This document shows positions 839 through 8,559 of a stretch of DNA of 8,559 bases, in pieces. The notes under the pieces were generated by a model that worked only from the letters and a program-made list of their open reading frames with translations, had not been told where the DNA came from and did no database searches. This stretch comes from Candidatus Latescibacterota bacterium (GTDB lineage: Bacteria > JAAXHH01 > JABIQT01), in contig JABIQT010000536.1 in assembly GCA_018667995.1 (NCBI GenBank), positions 1 through 8,559 of the forward strand, in the 5' to 3' direction. Both the position numbers and the translations under genes were made by a program. The first letter of the stretch is position 1. Every line of letters starts with the position of its first letter.

Positions 839-1819
839 ATGTCAACACTCAACGGGGAGTCGATCCTCATTACTGGTGGTACCGGCTCGTTCGGTCGCGC
901 GTTTGCCAGATACGCGTTGGACAACCTGGATCCACCTCGTCTCGTTGTCTACTCACGAGACGAGGTAAAGCAACTTGAGTTGCGCAGGCACCTTGATGAC
1001 GACCCCCGACTACGGTTTTTTATTGGAGACATACGGGATCAGACACGACTCCAGCGAGCGCTCCACGGCGTGGAGTCGGTCATTCACTGTTCCGCTCTCA
1101 AACAGGTCGACACGGCGGAGTACAACCCAATCGAATGCATCAAGACCAACGTGTTCGGGGCAGAAAACCTGATTAACGCGAGCATCGACGCCGGTGTTAA
1201 GCGCGTGATCGCTCTTTCAACCGACAAGGCATCGAGCCCGATCAACCTCTATGGGGCTAGCAAGTTATGCGCAGACAAGTTGTTCGTGGCCGCAAACCAC
1301 TACTCGGGCCTGAACGGGACCCGCTTTGCAGTGGTGCGTTACGGAAACGTTGCCAAGAGTCGAGGGTCAGTGATACCCATCTTCCAGGAACTAGCGCCCT
1401 CGGGAACGCTGCCGGTGACCGACCGACGAATGACCCGATTCTGGATCAGCATTGATGATGCCGTTCAATTCGTGGTCGACAGTGTTCAACGCATGCGGCA
1501 CGGCGGCGAGTTGTTCGTCCCGAGAATTCCCAGTACAAGGATCATCGATCTGGCTGAAGCAATCGCACCCGGTTGCAAGATTGAGGAAACCGGCATCCGG
1601 CCTGGTGAGAAGTTACATGAAGAGATGATCGCCGCCGAGGACTCCCGGCGGACCCGCATGTTCGATGACTACTATGTGATGCAACCCGTTCTTTCAGCGT
1701 GGGGTGGTGAGACGCTCATGTTGGGCGATCCAGTGCCCGAGGGCTTCTGCTACCGATCCGACTCTAACGAAGACTGGCTCTCCGTAGAGCAAATTCGACA
1801 ACTCCTACTCCGCCTGTGA
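839..1819 (+). CDS. pseB: UDP-N-acetylglucosamine 4,6-dehydratase (inverting), PseB
   Basis: This is a 326-residue extended short-chain dehydrogenase. By family knowledge PseB (FlaA1) converts UDP-GlcNAc to UDP-2-acetamido-2,6-dideoxy-beta-L-arabino-hexos-4-ulose, the first step of pseudaminic acid synthesis, in the cytoplasm. The N-terminal Rossmann motif TGGTGSFG (12-19) binds NADP. STDKA (127-131) and YGASK (138-142) hold the Asp-Lys and Tyr/Lys catalytic residues of the inverting dehydratases. Further matches to the PseB type are ALKQVDTAEYNPIECIKTN (86-104), VVRYGN, SRGSVIP, RMTRFWIS and GIRPGEKLHEEMI. STDKA and the roughly 330-residue length separate it from the larger membrane-bound PglF/CapD type. 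It is the first gene of the plus-strand operon, with a possible AGGAG at 821-825. Its stop overlaps the pseC start by 4 nt (GTGA). A specificity switch to a related dehydratase cannot be excluded but is unlikely given pseC next door. Confidence 0.93.
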   Translation: MSTLNGESILITGGTGSFGRAFARYALDNLDPPRLVVYSRDEVKQLELRRHLDDDPRLRFFIGDIRDQTRLQRALHGVESVIHCSALKQVDTAEYNPIECIKTNVFGAENLINASIDAGVKRVIALSTDKASSPINLYGASKLCADKLFVAANHYSGLNGTRFAVVRYGNVAKSRGSVIPIFQELAPSGTLPVTDRRMTRFWISIDDAVQFVVDSVQRMRHGGELFVPRIPSTRIIDLAEAIAPGCKIEETGIRPGEKLHEEMIAAEDSRRTRMFDDYYVMQPVLSAWGGETLMLGDPVPEGFCYRSDSNEDWLSVEQIRQLLLRL

Positions 1820-2913
1820 CTAACGCCAGAGTTCCATATGGCCACCAGAGCCTTGATGAGGACGATCTCGCTGCCGTAAGACAGGTCATGCTCAGTGATC
1901 GGCTCACACAGGGTCCTGTAGTTCCAGAATTTGAGACGGCAGTCGCCAACTCAGTGGGTTCCAGGTTCGCCGTCGCATTCAGCAGCGGAACCGCTGCCCT
2001 CCACGGAGCTGCCTTCGCCAGCGGGCTCCACCCCGGCGAAGTCGTCGTCACAACCCCGCTCACCTTTATTGCCAGCCTGAACTGCATACGCTACGTTGGC
2101 GCCCGTCCAGCCCTCATTGACATAGATCCGGCGACACTAAACATCGATCTAACTCAAGTTTCCGAGGCCGCCGCGGGCCTAGTGGCTGTCCACTACGCTG
2201 GTCTACCGGTCGACCTACGAAAGTTGCGGTCTCGTCCTCGGATCGTGATTGAGGATGCATCTCATTCGCTCGGGGCTTCGACGCCGTACGGCCCAGTCGG
2301 CAACTGCGCTCTCAGCGACATGACGGTCTTTTCCTTCCACCCGGTCAAGCCGATCACTACAGGTGAGGGTGGAATGGTGACCACCAACTCCTCAGTGTTC
2401 GCTGAGTCCCTAAGACGATTTAGGAACCACGGAATCACGCCTCAACCGCAGAAGGGGGCTTGGTGCTACGACGTCACCGAACTCGGATACAACTACCGTA
2501 TGACCGACATGCAGGCAGCACTCGGACTCTCACAGTTACGAAAACTCAGTTGCTTTGTGGAACGACGAAACGCGATCGCCGATCGATACCGAACGCTCCT
2601 GACCAACCTATCGTTGCTTCTGCCCCCTGAAGCAGAAATGGGATTTCGTCACGGCTACCATCTCTTCCCTGTGCGGGTCGACAACCGGAGGCAGGTCTTC
2701 GACGGACTTCGTGCACGAGGCCTTGACGTTCAGGTGCACTACGTTCCCGCTCACCACCACGGGGTCAACATTGACCTAGGGCTCCGGCCCGGTGATCTCC
2801 CGAACTGCGACGCCGCCTACGACCGTCTTGTCAGCCTGCCGATCTTCCCTGATCTGACCGATCGGCAACAGGACCGTGTTGTCAACGCACTCAGAACAAT
2901 TCTGGTGTCTTGA
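1816..2913 (+). CDS. pseC: UDP-4-amino-4,6-dideoxy-N-acetyl-beta-L-altrosamine transaminase, PseC
   Basis: This 365-residue protein belongs to the DegT/DnrJ/EryC1/StrS PLP aminotransferases. PseC transfers an amino group, usually from glutamate, to C4 of the PseB 4-keto product to give UDP-4-amino-4,6-dideoxy-beta-L-AltNAc. Visible motifs are SSGTAALH (56-63, phosphate pocket), EDASHSLGA (146-154, with Asp147 for the pyridine nitrogen) and FSFHPVKPITTGEGG (172-186), where Lys178 is the Schiff-base lysine. The HPVKPITT form is characteristic of the PseC subgroup. YNYRMTDMQAALG and HYVPAHHHG further on are also typical. The GTG start at 1816 overlaps the pseB stop (GTGA), and no clear Shine-Dalgarno precedes it, so translation is probably coupled to pseB. 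Length is normal for the family and the gene looks intact. Confidence 0.93.
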   Translation: MTNARVPYGHQSLDEDDLAAVRQVMLSDRLTQGPVVPEFETAVANSVGSRFAVAFSSGTAALHGAAFASGLHPGEVVVTTPLTFIASLNCIRYVGARPALIDIDPATLNIDLTQVSEAAAGLVAVHYAGLPVDLRKLRSRPRIVIEDASHSLGASTPYGPVGNCALSDMTVFSFHPVKPITTGEGGMVTTNSSVFAESLRRFRNHGITPQPQKGAWCYDVTELGYNYRMTDMQAALGLSQLRKLSCFVERRNAIADRYRTLLTNLSLLLPPEAEMGFRHGYHLFPVRVDNRRQVFDGLRARGLDVQVHYVPAHHHGVNIDLGLRPGDLPNCDAAYDRLVSLPIFPDLTDRQQDRVVNALRTILVS

Positions 2914-2933: not shown

Positions 2934-2940
2934 GTTGCCG

Positions 2941-3915
2941 ATGATCCCGCGACTTGTTGTGAGAGTCGATGGCTCGCGGGAAGTTGGATTCGGTCACGCC
3001 GTCAGATCCCTTGCGCTGGTCCAGGCTTGGCTAGATCAGGGAGGTACCGCCTCGGTGGCGAGCGCCTACCTGCCGGATCCTGTACGGCAGACCCTGCTAG
3101 ACGAAGGAGTCCAGATCATTGGACTCCCGTCGGTCGACACCGTCACGGACCCACTCCTAGAGTTGTTTGAACAAACTGATTGGGCAATCTTCGATAGTTA
3201 CGTAGTGCCAGCCCAAGTCCGTGAACTCGCCAAGGAGCGCTGTCCACGCACTGGGATGATCGATGATTTTGCCAACTCCACGCGCCCGGTAAATTTGGAT
3301 CTCATAGTTGATCAGAACTTGGGGGTAGGGCCAGAGTGTTATTCTGACGACAGGGTCAACTCGCTGCTTCTGGGAACTAGGTACGCTTTGCTCAGACGGT
3401 TCTTCAGGTCTACGGCCAGTCCCCGCCGGCAAACCAGCGACGGAAGGTTGCAAATTCTCTTCCTGACAGGCGGCTCGAGGCACCCTGTCGTCGCAGATGC
3501 ATTTCGTGGGGTCGCTGGCAACCTGAGACGCCAAGGGCACCATGTAATCGCTGTCGGTGGTGACCTAAGCGCACCACAGTTCGATTTCAACGACCTTCCC
3601 CGTGTCATGATTGAGGCGGACCTAGCAGTGTCTGCAGCCGGCTCCACCTGCTGGGAACTCGCCTGGTCTGGGGTTCCAACTGTTGCAATCCCCATAGCCG
3701 ACAACCAGAACCGGCTTGCCGAAGTCCTAGCATCGACGGGAGCAGCAGTGTCGCTTGACCCCAGGTCCCGCGAACTCCAGCGTGATCTCAGTCACACCAT
3801 TGCTGAGCTCGTCGCCACCCCAGAACGACGACAGGAAATGGCAGAAGTCGGCCGCAGTCTGGTCGACGGTTTAGGAACTGAACGGGTGGTTACCGCAATG
3901 ATGGACGAAATATAG
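2941..3915 (+). CDS. pseG: UDP-2,4-diacetamido-2,4,6-trideoxy-beta-L-altropyranose hydrolase, PseG
   Basis: This 324-residue protein has the GT-B-like fold of PseG, which releases UDP from the activated bis-amino sugar so that PseI can use it. The N-terminus contains VDGSREVGFGHAVRS, and His19 matches the catalytic His of the conserved GFGH motif (His17 in Campylobacter PseG). IDDFANS and DLIVDQNLG follow in the N-terminal half. The C-terminal nucleotide-binding half carries FLTGGSRH, AAGSTCWELAWSGVP (Ser235 and Glu239, the usual UDP-contact positions) and IADNQNRLAEVL (Asp254-Asn255-Gln256). It lies 27 nt after pseC. No PseH acetyltransferase is fused to it or next to it, so its true substrate may carry a different group at N4 (see the formyltransferase entry). 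The next gene begins after a 70-bp AT-rich gap. Intact. Confidence 0.9.
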   Translation: MIPRLVVRVDGSREVGFGHAVRSLALVQAWLDQGGTASVASAYLPDPVRQTLLDEGVQIIGLPSVDTVTDPLLELFEQTDWAIFDSYVVPAQVRELAKERCPRTGMIDDFANSTRPVNLDLIVDQNLGVGPECYSDDRVNSLLLGTRYALLRRFFRSTASPRRQTSDGRLQILFLTGGSRHPVVADAFRGVAGNLRRQGHHVIAVGGDLSAPQFDFNDLPRVMIEADLAVSAAGSTCWELAWSGVPTVAIPIADNQNRLAEVLASTGAAVSLDPRSRELQRDLSHTIAELVATPERRQEMAEVGRSLVDGLGTERVVTAMMDEI

Positions 3916-3985: not shown

Positions 3986-4783
3986 ATGGTATCTAACGCT
4001 ATGTCCAACAAGGATAAGATTCATCAACAGATCATATCATACTGGGACAGTGTAGCCACGCCGTATCATGATACTGAGATAGGAGAGATAAATGCCTCAC
4101 CCGACATTCTGTGTAAAGAGTTGGAACTTGATGCACTTCATCGAGCCCTCAATCCAGATGTAGACACGATAGAAATCGGTTGCGGCAACGGCCACAATCT
4201 GTTCGAATTGCAGAAGACATTCACAGGCTCTCTTACAGGCCTTGATGTATCAGCTCAGATGATTAAGTCCGCAAAGACTCGAAACGCAGACATTAACTTT
4301 ATTACTAGTGACATCTTGACTGATCTGCCGTTTGAACATACCTTTTCCCAAGCGTTTTCGGTCAGATGCTTAATCAATATTCATCCATTTGAGAATCAAT
4401 TACATGCTCTTTCCCAAATTGCGTCTTTGCTAAACATGGGAGGAGTGGTTGCATTGATTGAACCAACACTTCAGTCACTACATCAACTGAACGAACTTAG
4501 GACGACCGTTGGCCTAGAAGAAATAGAACTTAGATGGCATAATCTATATATTGACGAAGAACAGTTCCTTGATAATCTACCTGGTGAATTAGAGTTAGAA
4601 TATATTGATCGCTTCTCAAGTACTTATTACTTGGCCTCACGAATCTTCAATGCTATTGCAACCCCTAGAGGCGAATCACCTGATTATCGTTCAGCGATCA
4701 ATCAAGCTGGTCGGCTACTGCCATCGTTTGGAGATTTCGGACCTCATAAAATGTTTGTTCTTAGGAAGGTGTGTCCTACATGA
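3986..4783 (+). CDS. Class I SAM-dependent methyltransferase
   Basis: This 265-residue protein has a Rossmann methyltransferase core: motif I EIGCGNGHN (63-71), an acidic residue after beta2 in GLDVSAQMI (Asp87), the ITSDILTDLPF segment and LNMGGVVALIEP as the post-core strands. No membrane segment or signal peptide is apparent. The acceptor is unknown. Its place between pseG and pseI suggests O- or N-methylation of a nonulosonate or its precursor, but this is inferred from context only. AGGTGA at 3971-3976 supports ATG 3986; ATG 4001 is an alternative. The gene ends in an ATGA overlap with pseI. Its composition is strikingly AT-rich: sampled lines are about 35-43% GC, against roughly 53-68% for sampled pseC lines. 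It also uses AT-ending codons freely. This points to separate acquisition. It could instead act on another cell-surface sugar made by genes outside the window. Confidence 0.85.
   Translation: MVSNAMSNKDKIHQQIISYWDSVATPYHDTEIGEINASPDILCKELELDALHRALNPDVDTIEIGCGNGHNLFELQKTFTGSLTGLDVSAQMIKSAKTRNADINFITSDILTDLPFEHTFSQAFSVRCLINIHPFENQLHALSQIASLLNMGGVVALIEPTLQSLHQLNELRTTVGLEEIELRWHNLYIDEEQFLDNLPGELELEYIDRFSSTYYLASRIFNAIATPRGESPDYRSAINQAGRLLPSFGDFGPHKMFVLRKVCPT
4763..4769 (+). promoter_or_regulatory. Ribosome-binding site that decides the pseI start
   Basis: AGGAAGG lies ten bases before ATG 4780 and one base before the in-frame GTG at 4771. ATG 4780 also forms an ATGA overlap with the methyltransferase stop, so it is the better start. 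Confidence 0.6.
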
Positions 4784-5835
4784 TAGGTAATATTGTTATT
4801 GGTGACAGGAATATTTGTGCCAGAGAGGCACCATTGATTGTGGCTGAGATGTCAGGGAACCACAACCAATCCCTTAATCAGGCGATAGGGATTGTTGAGG
4901 CCGCGGCAACTTCCGGTGCTCATGCTCTCAAACTTCAGACCTACACTGCTGATACTATGACTATCGATGTCAACGGGGACGGATTTTCTGTTACTGACTC
5001 AAATAGTCCATGGTATGGGCGCTCCCTCTATGACCTCTACGAAGAAGCGCACACTCCCTGGGAGTGGCATGAGGCCATTTTCGACCGATGCCGAGAACTT
5101 GGCCTAATCCCGATAAGCACGCCATTCGATGAAACTTCTGTCGAGTTTCTTGAACAGTTTGATCTTCCCGCCTATAAAGTGGCATCGTTTGAGAATACTG
5201 ATCTACCTCTTTTGCGGCGTATAGCTTCCACCGGCAAACCGATGATAATCTCGACTGGAATGACAACACTCACCGAACTTTCTGAGACGATTGAGGAAGT
5301 TCGAACCGCAGGTTGCGAGCAACTCGTACTCCTAAAGTGTACGAGTAGTTACCCAGCAAATCCAAGTTTCAGTAACCTGATGACTATTCCCCATATGCGG
5401 CAACTATTCGGCACCGAGGTCGGACTCTCGGATCACACCCTGGGGATTGGTGCGGCCATAGCCGCTGTAGCGCTGGGAGCTACCGTGATTGAGAAGCACT
5501 TCACACTTAGCCGCGCAGACGGTGGCGTTGACAGCCAATTCTCTCTGGAACCCGATGAGATGGCATCGCTAGTCATAGAATCTGAACGTGCATGGAATAG
5601 TCTCGGAGAGGTCTTCTACGCACCTACAGAGCCAGAAGTCGAATCACTCGTCTTCCGACGATCCCTCTACTTCGTGGAGGACATTGAGAGCGGGGGAACG
5701 ATCACCCAATCACACATTCGTAGAATTCGACCAGGCCTTGGTATTCCACCTAAGCATGAAGAAGAGATCATCGGACGTAAGGTCCGGGCAGCGGTCAAGC
5801 GCGGCTGGCCGGTGACGTGGGAACTACTCGAATAG
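4780..5835 (+). CDS. pseI: Pseudaminic acid synthase, PseI
   Basis: This 351-residue NeuB-family protein is a TIM barrel with a C-terminal SAF (antifreeze-like) domain. PseI condenses the free 2,4-diamino-2,4,6-trideoxy-L-altrose product with phosphoenolpyruvate to form the nine-carbon acid. Motifs typical of PseI rather than sialic acid NeuB are LKLQTYTADTMT, LYEEAHTPWEWH, STPFDETSV, YKVASFE (NeuB usually has KIASG/AD), IISTGM and LKCTSSYPA. Both metal-binding histidines of NeuB enzymes are present: His219 in GLSDHTLG and His240 in EKHFTLSR, 21 residues apart. FSLEPDEM follows. The SAF domain starts around FRRSLYFVEDIESG and contains IRRIRPGLGIPPKHEEEIIG. The 3' end overlaps the formyltransferase-like gene by 19 nt. 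The sharp rise in GC right at its start contrasts with the preceding methyltransferase gene. Confidence 0.93.
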   Translation: MIGNIVIGDRNICAREAPLIVAEMSGNHNQSLNQAIGIVEAAATSGAHALKLQTYTADTMTIDVNGDGFSVTDSNSPWYGRSLYDLYEEAHTPWEWHEAIFDRCRELGLIPISTPFDETSVEFLEQFDLPAYKVASFENTDLPLLRRIASTGKPMIISTGMTTLTELSETIEEVRTAGCEQLVLLKCTSSYPANPSFSNLMTIPHMRQLFGTEVGLSDHTLGIGAAIAAVALGATVIEKHFTLSRADGGVDSQFSLEPDEMASLVIESERAWNSLGEVFYAPTEPEVESLVFRRSLYFVEDIESGGTITQSHIRRIRPGLGIPPKHEEEIIGRKVRAAVKRGWPVTWELLE

Positions 5836-6560
5836 CCGGTTCGCCCGGACCAAAAACGAGCCCGTCATTCGTAGTTGTAGGCTCTCGTCCGTGGAACCGC
5901 CAACTGTTTGATAGGCAGATTCGAGATCAACCTGGCACATGGGTATTCATCGATTCTCCGGACGCCCTCAGCGTTGATCGTCTTGCTCAGATTGATCCCC
6001 GCTACGTGTTCTTCCTTCATTGGAGTTCACTCGTTCAACCTTCTATTCATGATCGATGGGAGTGTGTAGTTTTCCACATGACTGACGTCCCCTACGGCAG
6101 GGGCGGGAGTCCGCTCCAGAACCTAATGGCCCGCGGACATGAAGAAACGGTGCTTTCGGCCATTCGAATGACCAACAGTTTGGATGCCGGACCGGTCTAC
6201 ATGAAACAACTCCTACAGTTGGACGGTACCGCTGACGATATCTACCGCCGCGCTGGATTACAGTCGGTCAACATGATGATTGAGATCATTAACAGCGAGC
6301 CTGAACCCGTTCCCCAGGCAGGAGAAGTAACCATGTTTGAGCGGAGAACACCCGAGCAGAGTCAACTGAGCGCCAGCACTACAGACCTTAGGGATTTGGA
6401 TGTGTTCATCCGAATGCTTGACGCGGATGGATACCCAGCCGCCTTCCTACGCCACGGAAACCTCAGGCTTGAGTTCCGGGACTCCTCATTGCAAGACAAC
6501 CGAATCGTCGCCAAGGTGGAGATTACGAGTACAGACTCCAAGGAGGAACACACGACATGA
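5817..6560 (+). CDS. Formyltransferase-like protein, probable sugar N-formyltransferase (PseJ-like)
   Basis: This 247-residue protein has the core signature of N10-formyltetrahydrofolate-dependent formyltransferases. The block VVFHMTDVPYGRGGSPLQNL (84-103) corresponds to NxHxSLLPxxRG of methionyl-tRNA formyltransferase. His87 is the catalytic His, and SLDAGPVYMK supplies Asp123, 36 residues later, the same spacing as His108-Asp144 in E. coli Fmt. Val85 occupies the position of the catalytic Asn. FERRTPEQSQL (roughly 174-184) is typical of the polysaccharide-cluster subgroup. The C-terminus (about 190-247) resembles a small substrate domain. No PseH acetyltransferase is seen, so this protein is the natural candidate to acylate N4 of the PseC product, giving a 7-N-formyl pseudaminic acid. 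I recall such an enzyme being named PseJ, but the assignment here is inferred. The GTG start overlaps pseI and has no strong Shine-Dalgarno; no other start is near. It ends in ATGA with the deacetylase gene. Confidence 0.75.
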   Translation: MGTTRIAGSPGPKTSPSFVVVGSRPWNRQLFDRQIRDQPGTWVFIDSPDALSVDRLAQIDPRYVFFLHWSSLVQPSIHDRWECVVFHMTDVPYGRGGSPLQNLMARGHEETVLSAIRMTNSLDAGPVYMKQLLQLDGTADDIYRRAGLQSVNMMIEIINSEPEPVPQAGEVTMFERRTPEQSQLSASTTDLRDLDVFIRMLDADGYPAAFLRHGNLRLEFRDSSLQDNRIVAKVEITSTDSKEEHTT

Positions 6561-7237
6561 GCGTCCTTATCGTGGCATCCCATCCCGACGATGAGGTCCT
6601 CGGTTGCGGGGGCACGATAATGAGACATGTCCGAAATGATGAACGTGTCACTGTCGCGATCCTTGGCGAGGGTGTCACATCCCGGCAACCAACAGTTCGT
6701 GAAACTAGCATCCAGAGTCTTTCTGACCTCAGAGATGCAGCAAGAGAAGCCGCAACTCAACTGGGGGTAACCGACCTCAGGTTATTCGACTATCCCGACA
6801 ATAGATTCGATACCGTCGAGCTACTTGACTTGGTGAGAACCGTTGAGGAGATCATTGCCGATGTCAAGCCCCATACAGTCTATTGCCAACATGGCGGTGA
6901 CCTCAACATTGATCACCAGTTGACCTTTAGAGCTGTTCTCACTGCCACCAGACCACAGCCTGGACAGGTGGCCAAAAGGCTCTACACTTGGTCAACGCGA
7001 TCAGCCACCGAATGGACATTTGGCTCCATATCCCCAGTGTTCGTTCCCAGACTCTTTGTGGACATCAGTAGCACGCTTCAAGACAAGCTCGAAGCGCTGA
7101 GCATCTATGGGAACGAACTCCGCCCCTGGCCCCATTCCCGCTCCCTCCAAGCGATAGAAGCAGCCTGTCGCAGCAACGGCGCCAAGGTTGGCTTGGAAGC
7201 AGCTGAAGTATTTGACGTGATCCGAATAATAGATTGA
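6557..7237 (+). CDS. PIG-L/LmbE family de-N-acetylase
   Basis: This 226-residue protein matches zinc-dependent PIG-L deacetylases, which remove N-acetyl groups from GlcNAc-type sugars (for example GlcNAc-PI, MshB and BshB substrates). The N-terminal SHPDDEVLGCGGT gives zinc ligands His9 and Asp12 and catalytic base Asp11. HGGDLNIDH (112-120) supplies the third ligand, His120. Length is standard. A strong AAGGAGG (6540-6546) precedes ATG 6557, which overlaps the formyltransferase stop (ATGA), so the two are probably made together. The coupling suggests that one enzyme exposes an amine the other could acylate, or that both serve one product. The substrate is not shown by the sequence. A mycothiol-type role is unlikely in this setting because no thiol-pathway genes are present. 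It ends 38 nt before the second NeuB-family gene. Confidence 0.88.
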   Translation: MSVLIVASHPDDEVLGCGGTIMRHVRNDERVTVAILGEGVTSRQPTVRETSIQSLSDLRDAAREAATQLGVTDLRLFDYPDNRFDTVELLDLVRTVEEIIADVKPHTVYCQHGGDLNIDHQLTFRAVLTATRPQPGQVAKRLYTWSTRSATEWTFGSISPVFVPRLFVDISSTLQDKLEALSIYGNELRPWPHSRSLQAIEAACRSNGAKVGLEAAEVFDVIRIID

Positions 7238-7275: not shown

Positions 7276-8352
7276 ATGATCCGTATTGGCGATCATCCCG
7301 TCGGAGATACACACCCATGCTTTATCACTTTCGAAATAGGCCCAACACACGAGGGAGTTGAGTCAGCAAAACGGTTGATTCAGCACGCATCAACTGCAGG
7401 AGCTGATGCGGTCAAGTTCCAGATCCTCGATCCAGATCGTCTAGTTTCTGACAAGACTCAGATGTTCTCTTACAGTGTGTTAGTAGACAGAGATTCCGGC
7501 AGCACCGAAATAGTCGACGAGCCACTATATGACATCCTAAAACGGCGACACTTGGCCGACTACGAATGGAGAGAGTTGAAGGCTTTCAGTGATTCATTGG
7601 GCATGGCATTCTTCTCAACAGTCGCATTTGATGATGAAATAGAATTGCTGGAAGACCTTGGATGTCACTCAATCAAGATCGCCTCTGCAGACATAAACCA
7701 TCTACCTCTAATTAGACGAGCTGCGCAAACAGGTATGTGTATCCAACTAGACACAGGAATGGCAACTCTCGGAGAGATCGAGACGGCCGTCAATGTTATC
7801 AGCTCCGAAGGTAACCAAGATATAATAATACATCAGTGTCCATCAGGCTATCCCGCTCTTCTTGACAGTATCAATTTGCGAATAATTCCAACCCTCCGCC
7901 AACTATTTCCATATCCGGTTGCATTCTCTGACCATAGCCCTGGCATATTGATGGACGTCGCAGCCCTCGCCCTTGGAGCAAACCTCCTCGAGAAGACCAT
8001 TACCGAGAACCGAATGACTCCAAGCGTTGAACATATCATGTCCTTGGAGCCCGACGAAATGCACTCCTTCGTAAGAACTATACGCGATACAGAAACCGCC
8101 CTCGGTGCAACCCGCCGCGTTCTTACTCCTGACGAGTCTTCAGCCCGTCTCGCTGCACGCCGGAGCACATTCCTCACCGCAGAAGCAAAGGCAGGGCAAT
8201 CACTCAATGAATGCACCGTTGAATTCCGTCGTCCTGGATACGGACTTCCTCCGGACATATTCGTCACTCTTCAAGACGCGACTATAAATCGGGATCTGAA
8301 TGACGGTCACATGCTTCGACTTCGCGATTTGAGATGGACCCAGGAACTATGA
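7276..8352 (+). CDS. NeuB/SpsE-family nonulosonic acid synthase, divergent second copy
   Basis: This 358-residue protein has a NeuB barrel plus a C-terminal SAF domain. Recognisable blocks are FEIGPTHEGVESAKRLI, AGADAVKFQ, FFSTVAFDDEI, SIKIASADINHLPLI, DTGMATLGEI, HQCPSGYPA, AFSDHSPG (His220) and SLEPDEMHSF. The SAF domain starts near RRSTFLTAEAKAG and includes VEFRRPGYGLPPDIF. It differs from PseI upstream: KIASAD replaces KVASFE, the usual NH of EIGxNHxG is TH, and EKHFT is EKTIT. Thr241 therefore sits 21 residues after His220, where characterised NeuB has its second metal-binding His. A nearby His253 in SVEHIMSLEP may compensate; I recall that motif as typical of a whole subgroup. The substrate is probably a different six-carbon amino sugar. 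ATG 7276 has only a weak Shine-Dalgarno. The end overlaps pseF by ATGA. Composition is lower in GC in its middle (about 42% in sampled lines). Confidence 0.85.
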   Translation: MIRIGDHPVGDTHPCFITFEIGPTHEGVESAKRLIQHASTAGADAVKFQILDPDRLVSDKTQMFSYSVLVDRDSGSTEIVDEPLYDILKRRHLADYEWRELKAFSDSLGMAFFSTVAFDDEIELLEDLGCHSIKIASADINHLPLIRRAAQTGMCIQLDTGMATLGEIETAVNVISSEGNQDIIIHQCPSGYPALLDSINLRIIPTLRQLFPYPVAFSDHSPGILMDVAALALGANLLEKTITENRMTPSVEHIMSLEPDEMHSFVRTIRDTETALGATRRVLTPDESSARLAARRSTFLTAEAKAGQSLNECTVEFRRPGYGLPPDIFVTLQDATINRDLNDGHMLRLRDLRWTQEL

Positions 8353-8559
8353 CCCGTCTTGCGATTATTCCTGCCCGGGGCGGATCTATCCGTCTACCGC
8401 GGAAGAATATCTTGCCTTTAGAAAAAAAGCCAATGATCTGTTATCCGATTGAGGCTTCACTCGAGTCCAATCTCTTTGATCAGGTCCTGGTATCAACCGA
8501 TGATGAGGAGATTGCAGATATCGCGAGTGATTCTGGAGCTCACATTATCCACCGCCCAC
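8349..8559 (+). CDS. pseF: CMP-nonulosonate (pseudaminic acid type) cytidylyltransferase, N-terminal part, cut by right edge
   Basis: Seventy codons are visible before the window ends. The start reads MTRLAIIPARGGSIRLPRKN, the nucleotide-binding motif of CMP-sialic/pseudaminic acid synthetases (IPARGGSKRxPRKN). It continues with KKPMICYPIEASLES, LFDQVLVSTDDEEIADIA and SGAHIIHRP, all typical of NeuA/PseF. The enzyme activates the free nonulosonic acid with CTP, releasing pyrophosphate, the last step before glycosyl transfer. The Lys of the GSK motif is Ile here. The ATG forms an ATGA overlap with the preceding synthase stop. Pseudaminic specificity is inferred from pseB, pseC, pseG and pseI upstream. 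The immediate neighbour is the divergent synthase, so it could instead activate that product. Confidence 0.75.
   Translation, partial: MTRLAIIPARGGSIRLPRKNILPLEKKPMICYPIEASLESNLFDQVLVSTDDEEIADIASDSGAHIIHRP

Follow-up and report, generated by a model that had tools for sequence, protein, structure and literature searches.

A branch of the NeuB sialic acid synthase family with threonine at the position of the second metal-binding histidine, and its putative role in making a second nonulosonate

In NeuB, Mn2+ is coordinated by two histidines (PMC7591256). The protein described here, NeuB2, resembles two described synthases of this kind: it has the fold and the PEP- and sugar-binding residues in common with Neisseria meningitidis NeuB (TIGR03569, PDB 1xuu), and it is like the pseudaminic acid synthase PseI (TIGR03586; C. 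jejuni NeuB3, PDB 8h2c) in fold, in length, in having an antifreeze-like domain, and at most catalytic residues, besides sharing an operon with it. It differs from the former in the loss of the second Mn ligand and from the latter in having T241 for His and A138 for Phe, together with T24, D159, H186, and E252; a small residue at 138 is also found in Neu/Leg synthases. Outside the family, the non-metal form of KDO8P synthase carries out a related TIM-barrel PEP aldol condensation and is likewise changed at a metal ligand position, but there the change is Cys to Asn and no metal is used, whereas in NeuB2 the change is His to Thr in another family and may or may not go with loss of the metal. 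Shewanella SfmA (SO_3261) is a described case of an additional NeuB-domain protein that takes part in assembling a nonulosonate glycan, and it is associated with a glycan moiety of 236-264 Da on the nonulosonate (PMC3765264); its likeness to NeuB2 is one of described role, and its length differs (290 aa against 358).

The window, meaning the whole 8,559-nucleotide stretch of DNA analyzed, carries NeuB2 in an operon with the gene order PseB, PseC, PseG, methyltransferase, PseI, formyltransferase-like protein, PIG-L deacetylase, NeuB2, and PseF/NeuA-type cytidylyltransferase:

839..1819, + strand: PseB (TIGR03589, 476 bits, cut-off 408)
1816..2913, + strand: PseC-type aminotransferase (TIGR03588, 403.5 bits, slightly below the cut-off of 423.5)
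2935..3915, + strand: PseG-type UDP-sugar hydrolase (TIGR03590, 127 bits, below the cut-off of 153.6)
3986..4783, + strand: SAM methyltransferase (PF13649)
4771..5835, + strand: PseI, ordinary pseudaminic acid synthase with both metal His (TIGR03586, 467 bits, cut-off 340)
5817..6560, + strand: formyltransferase-like protein (PF21553)
6557..7237, + strand: PIG-L family deacetylase (PF02585)
7276..8352, + strand: NeuB2, predicted EKT-clade NeuB-family PEP-condensing synthase (ATG start, 358 aa; PF03102, E 2.3e-64)
8349..8559, + strand: PseF/NeuA-type cytidylyltransferase, cut by the contig end (PF02348 at 8361-8549, E 2e-19)

The ATG of the cytidylyltransferase gene overlaps the NeuB2 stop codon (ATGA). 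No PseH was recognized in the window, and together with the formyltransferase-like and PIG-L genes at 5817-7237 this suggests that the pseudaminic acid is N-formylated or re-acylated. A further NeuB-family gene, of the EIGNNH type, lies elsewhere in the same genome (G000:C423:11698-12396).

NeuB2 belongs to the NeuB family by profile and by predicted structure. It scores 217.6 bits against PF03102, for which the curated cut-off is 22.1, and its AlphaFold2 model (pLDDT 90) has NeuB, PseI, and SpsE as its top structural neighbors and DAHP and KDO8P synthases as its second. A NeuB-type TIM barrel is present, with a Z score of 35.0 against 1xuu (336 residues aligned, rmsd 8.9 over both domains) and of 35.3 against 6ncs (rmsd 1.6 over 257 barrel residues). 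The Pfam search reported no match to SAF, the antifreeze-like domain; in profile alignment with PseI this domain is present, the alignment reaching residue 354, and R319 falls in the column of the substrate-binding R314 of N. meningitidis NeuB (Nm). NeuB2 is neither a named Neu5Ac synthase nor a named pseudaminic acid synthase: its scores of 249.7 for the NeuB_NnaB equivalog TIGR03569 (cut-off 399.65) and 215.1 for the PseI equivalog TIGR03586 (cut-off 340.25) are far too low, and both names were rejected.

The first-pass annotation of this DNA had proposed that NeuB2 keeps the first metal-binding His, as H220 in an SDH motif, and has lost the second to T241 in EKTIT, and pairwise alignment with 1xuu bears this out, H220 lying on H215 and T241 on H236, which we take to be the two Mn-binding His of N. 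meningitidis NeuB. NeuB2 thus has one of the two metal His that mark the Mn-dependent NeuB/PseI synthases. PseI of the same window has both, as had been stated, at 219 and 240 counted from an ATG three codons in, or 222 and 243 from the listed GTG. The reported GPTH at residues 22-25 is likewise there, with a small correction to the motif given for comparison: the partner PseI reads EMSGNH instead of EIGxNH, and the consensus of the NeuB2 clade is EAG(P/A)TH.

That the Thr is no accident of one genome is indicated by its distribution. A scan of GTDB genomes found 17 NeuB2-like loci at 51-63% identity, whose record names include Alphaproteobacteria, Desulfobacteraceae, Nitrospinota, a cyanobacterium, Phycisphaerae, and others, labels that are approximate because they are mostly titles of metagenome-assembled genomes; four classes, searched at about 290 genomes each, contributed 4, 8, 0, and 1 further members. 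A profile of the clade separates it sharply, with members at or above 488 bits (except one contig-truncated copy at 377) and the best non-member at 287. In a family tree from which the ten trait columns were left out, the EKT sequences form one group (SH-aLRT 96), so the clade that the earlier reading proposed to look for is real. Among plasmid and phage collections searched by tblastn, no relative of NeuB2 was listed above about 37% identity, and a literature search, with most subscription journals outside its coverage, found neither such a clade nor a metal-independent NeuB. Across 30 distinct members, T24, D159, H186, P189, H220, M226, and T241 are invariant, as is E252 wherever the residue is present, whereas column 241 in 148 other family members holds His in 137, Arg in 8, Asn in 2, Pro in 1, and Thr in none. 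By this comparison T241, which none of the 30 distinct members lacks although they span several phyla, is more than chance and no private mutation. The residues that set the site apart are as follows:

7345..7347, + strand: T24, in place of the Asn of the E-x-G/S-x-N-H motif (30/30 in the clade, 10/127 in others)
7750..7752, + strand: D159, in place of Ser154 in Nm numbering (30/30 in the clade)
7831..7833, + strand: H186, a new invariant His where NmNeuB has L180 (30/30 in the clade, 2/148 in others)
7933..7935, + strand: H220, the retained first metal His, NmNeuB H215 (30/30 in the clade, 140/148 in others)
7996..7998, + strand: T241, at the second metal His, NmNeuB H236 (30/30 in the clade; in others Thr 0/148, His 137/148)
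8029..8031, + strand: E252, in place of Asp247 in Nm numbering (29/29 in the clade, 4/148 in others)

Outside the clade T24, D159, and H186 follow the loss of the second His: it is absent from all 10 non-clade sequences that have T24, the 11 non-clade sequences with Asp at 159 are exactly the 11 without it, and both non-clade sequences with H186 are of the EKN type. Since D159 replaces a Ser that presumably lies near the PEP phosphate in the NeuB structure, NeuB2 might use a different donor. An altered metal site, as first proposed, is supported in sequence by T241 and this linked set, but H253, which had been offered as a replacement ligand, does not hold up. It aligns with I248 of NmNeuB, and His stands there in 95 of the 148 other NeuB-family proteins, nearly all of which retain the second metal His; being common in ordinary members, it is no compensating change. 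Column 252 holds Asp in 133 of those 148, and when aligned by hhalign with DAHP synthases, both this Asp in PseI (Nm D247) and E252 in NeuB2 fall on the Asp of the SDG motif. The metal-binding Asp of KDO8P synthase sits in the corresponding CDGP motif (PMC3052366), which makes E252 a candidate ligand. E252 and D159 are therefore better candidates than H253, whether they serve as replacement ligands or belong to a site without metal.

The clade shows no variation at the equivalents of Nm E25, K53, Q55, T110, K129, S132, Y186, S213, H215, E234, and R314, most of which are in a published active-site list (PMC6795526), and because the catalytic residues checked are otherwise kept, NeuB2 is probably an active PEP-condensing enzyme. 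In Caulobacter crescentus NeuB, the H245A variant retains partial activity and E30A and R322A have none (PMC7591256). Spacing after the catalytic Glu suggests that H245 is the His replaced in NeuB2: it lies at +215 from E30, and the corresponding distance of the second metal His is +211 for NmNeuB and +217 for the PseI of this window, that of the first being +190-196. NeuB2 would then have kept the indispensable residues and lost the more tolerant one.

The sugar substrate also appears to differ, as the first-pass annotation had suggested. A Phe at the position corresponding to 138 marks Pse-type substrates and a Gly marks Neu/Leg-type ones (PMC7371886); the Phe that follows the KIAS motif (C. 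jejuni F129) never occurs in the clade, where residue 138 is Ala, Gly, or Ser in 30 of 30 members (A138 in NeuB2). With the pseudaminic-marking Phe missing, NeuB2 most likely makes a second nonulosonate, and sequence and gene context together support a sugar that is probably different.

That context is recurrent. NeuB2 sits inside pseudaminic operons (PseB-PseC-NeuB2-PseF...PseG-PseI), and its coexistence with an ordinary PseI, noted at the outset for this locus, extends to the clade: a second, His-type NeuB/PseI lies within about 10 kb at 25 of the 27 EKT loci with several kilobases of readable contig, the two exceptions being cut by a contig end on one side. PseB, PseC, PseF, PseG, and PseI recur in the clusters, which vary in their GNAT or formyltransferase, PIG-L, and HisH/HisF/WbuX amidination genes; HisH/HisF/WbuX-type genes in four of them (L039:9081-11847, L044:9106-11797, L047:11103-13661, and L048) point to acetamidino nonulosonates. 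The NeuB2 clusters have no constant gene in common that would provide a separate sugar substrate, and no NeuC or LegG was recognized in them, a difference from N. meningitidis NeuB to be read with many cluster genes remaining unlabelled. In the genome of the cultured cyanobacterium Baaleninema simplex PCC 7105 (G061; NeuB2 orthologue at L037), where pseF adjoins neuB2, and likewise in G072 and G073, two synthases go with a single cluster pseF, and the one other clear CTP-transferase match is a KdsB-like gene. NeuB2 usually overlaps or abuts pseF. The neuB2-adjacent pseF may or may not be a clade of its own, the pseF seed set having been biased toward such genes and a high-scoring pseF also standing beside an ordinary PseI (L062).

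Pairing extends beyond the EKT clade. Among 80 IMG/VR loci, a second NeuB-family gene is near in 11 of the 11 with a non-His gene, which amount to about five independent cases because of near-identical contigs, against 12 of the 69 others, where the pairs consist of a short SGH-type and a long NeuB. These short proteins (about 280-295 aa, with the SGH motif; L154, L155, L159, L164, L175, L177, L178, L179, L190, L193, L199, and L201) are SfmA-like by length. The 11 non-His sequences outside the EKT clade come mostly from IMG/VR contigs, which are putatively viral; all 11 have D159 and D139 and 10 have T24. Both metal His are gone in 8 of them, with Asp or Pro at 220 and Arg at 241, and the others have Asn (two) or Pro (one) at 241. 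Most of the EKR relatives have Asp at 220 and His at 252, the reverse of the usual His and Asp. At the IMG/VR loci L122, L123, L125, L127, L133, L134, L144, L158, and L165, the gene lacking both His (D/P at 220, R at 241) adjoins or is near an ordinary His-type NeuB, and PseB/PseC/PseF/PIG-L-like genes belong to the clusters; a relative with Pro at the second position (L096, G575:C99:7380-8411) has an in-frame TGA. Two His sequences (L102 and L142) fell among the non-His ones in a free quick tree, but keeping all 32 non-His rows together improved the likelihood of the tree by 34 log units (AU p 0.87). A single origin of the EKT, EKR, EKN, and EKP sequences as one larger clade is thus the better reading of these alignments, not a proven one, because a p value over 0.05 does not demonstrate a clade.

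The reading that we favor, with moderate confidence, is that NeuB2 belongs to an old, distinct branch of NeuB in which the active site has been remodeled about the missing second His, and that it is a PEP-dependent synthase of a second nonulosonate sharing PseF with PseI. It would most likely be a domain-swapped, aldol-type enzyme, converting PEP and an open-chain amino sugar, distinct from the one that PseI uses, into a second nonulosonate, which the shared PseF would activate with CMP for the same glycan as the PseI product. The site may be metal-free, with the Thr and its neighbors acting like the Asn of non-metal KDO8P synthase, or may hold a metal through H220 with E252, D159, or both; we infer the catalysis, the PEP donor, the identity of the sugar, and either form of the site from the comparisons above. 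Points that weigh against this reading are the possible change of donor that goes with D159, the absence of a sugar-supplying gene common to all clusters, and the low scores of NeuB2 with both NCBIfam synthase models. A broader and more tentative proposal is a class of metal-independent nonulosonate synthases, a counterpart to non-metal KDO8P synthase. It would be a single ancient branch in which Thr, Asn, Pro, or Arg replaces the second His (the Arg type also being without the first), usually paired with an ordinary synthase and giving two nonulosonates per pathway. Set against metal independence is ordinary, metal-dependent chemistry with exchanged ligands, H220 and E252 with possibly D159 or H186, for which the invariance of E252, its alignment with a metal-binding Asp, and the swap of 220 and 252 to Asp and His in most EKR relatives all speak. 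Such a site could not form in two EKR relatives with Pro at 220, and we consider it somewhat unlikely.

NeuB2 might instead make an alpha-keto acid that is not CMP-activated and that pseudaminic acid carries as a substituent or second moiety, much as SfmA is needed for a Shewanella flagellin glycan whose nonulosonate bears a further moiety (PMC3765264). A single PseF for two synthases in several clusters would fit, but at its length SfmA cannot accommodate the antifreeze-like domain, which NeuB2 has along with R319, and the usual overlap with pseF points to CMP activation, so that we regard this as improbable. Still less probable is a non-catalytic or regulatory partner, forming a swapped heterodimer with PseI in which the antifreeze-like domain of NeuB2 (R319) would complete the PseI site: NeuB is indeed a domain-swapped dimer (PMC7591256) and ordinary synthases do lie near almost all non-His genes in bacterial clusters and IMG/VR loci alike, but the barrel's catalytic residues would not be expected to stay invariant in a dead partner, and in the tree the PseI partners lie within the ordinary PseI branch and form no clade of their own. 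As for a decaying duplicate that lost its His by drift, one of the two metal ligands is gone, but T241 and its linked residues are invariant across phyla at about 50-64% identity, in intact frames at a stable operon position; conservation rules out a pseudogene, and we give drift almost no credence.

The NeuB2-type branch is, by the homologues recovered here, widespread in the sialic-acid-synthase family. Its members can readily pass for an extra copy of PseI or NeuB, and product predictions for such clusters may therefore be incomplete; NeuB2-type genes mark operons likely to make unrecognized bacterial sialic-acid-like sugars. Sialic acid synthases are described as metalloenzymes, and a conserved branch without one or both metal His would show that the family, like KDO8P synthase, is able to change its metal site.
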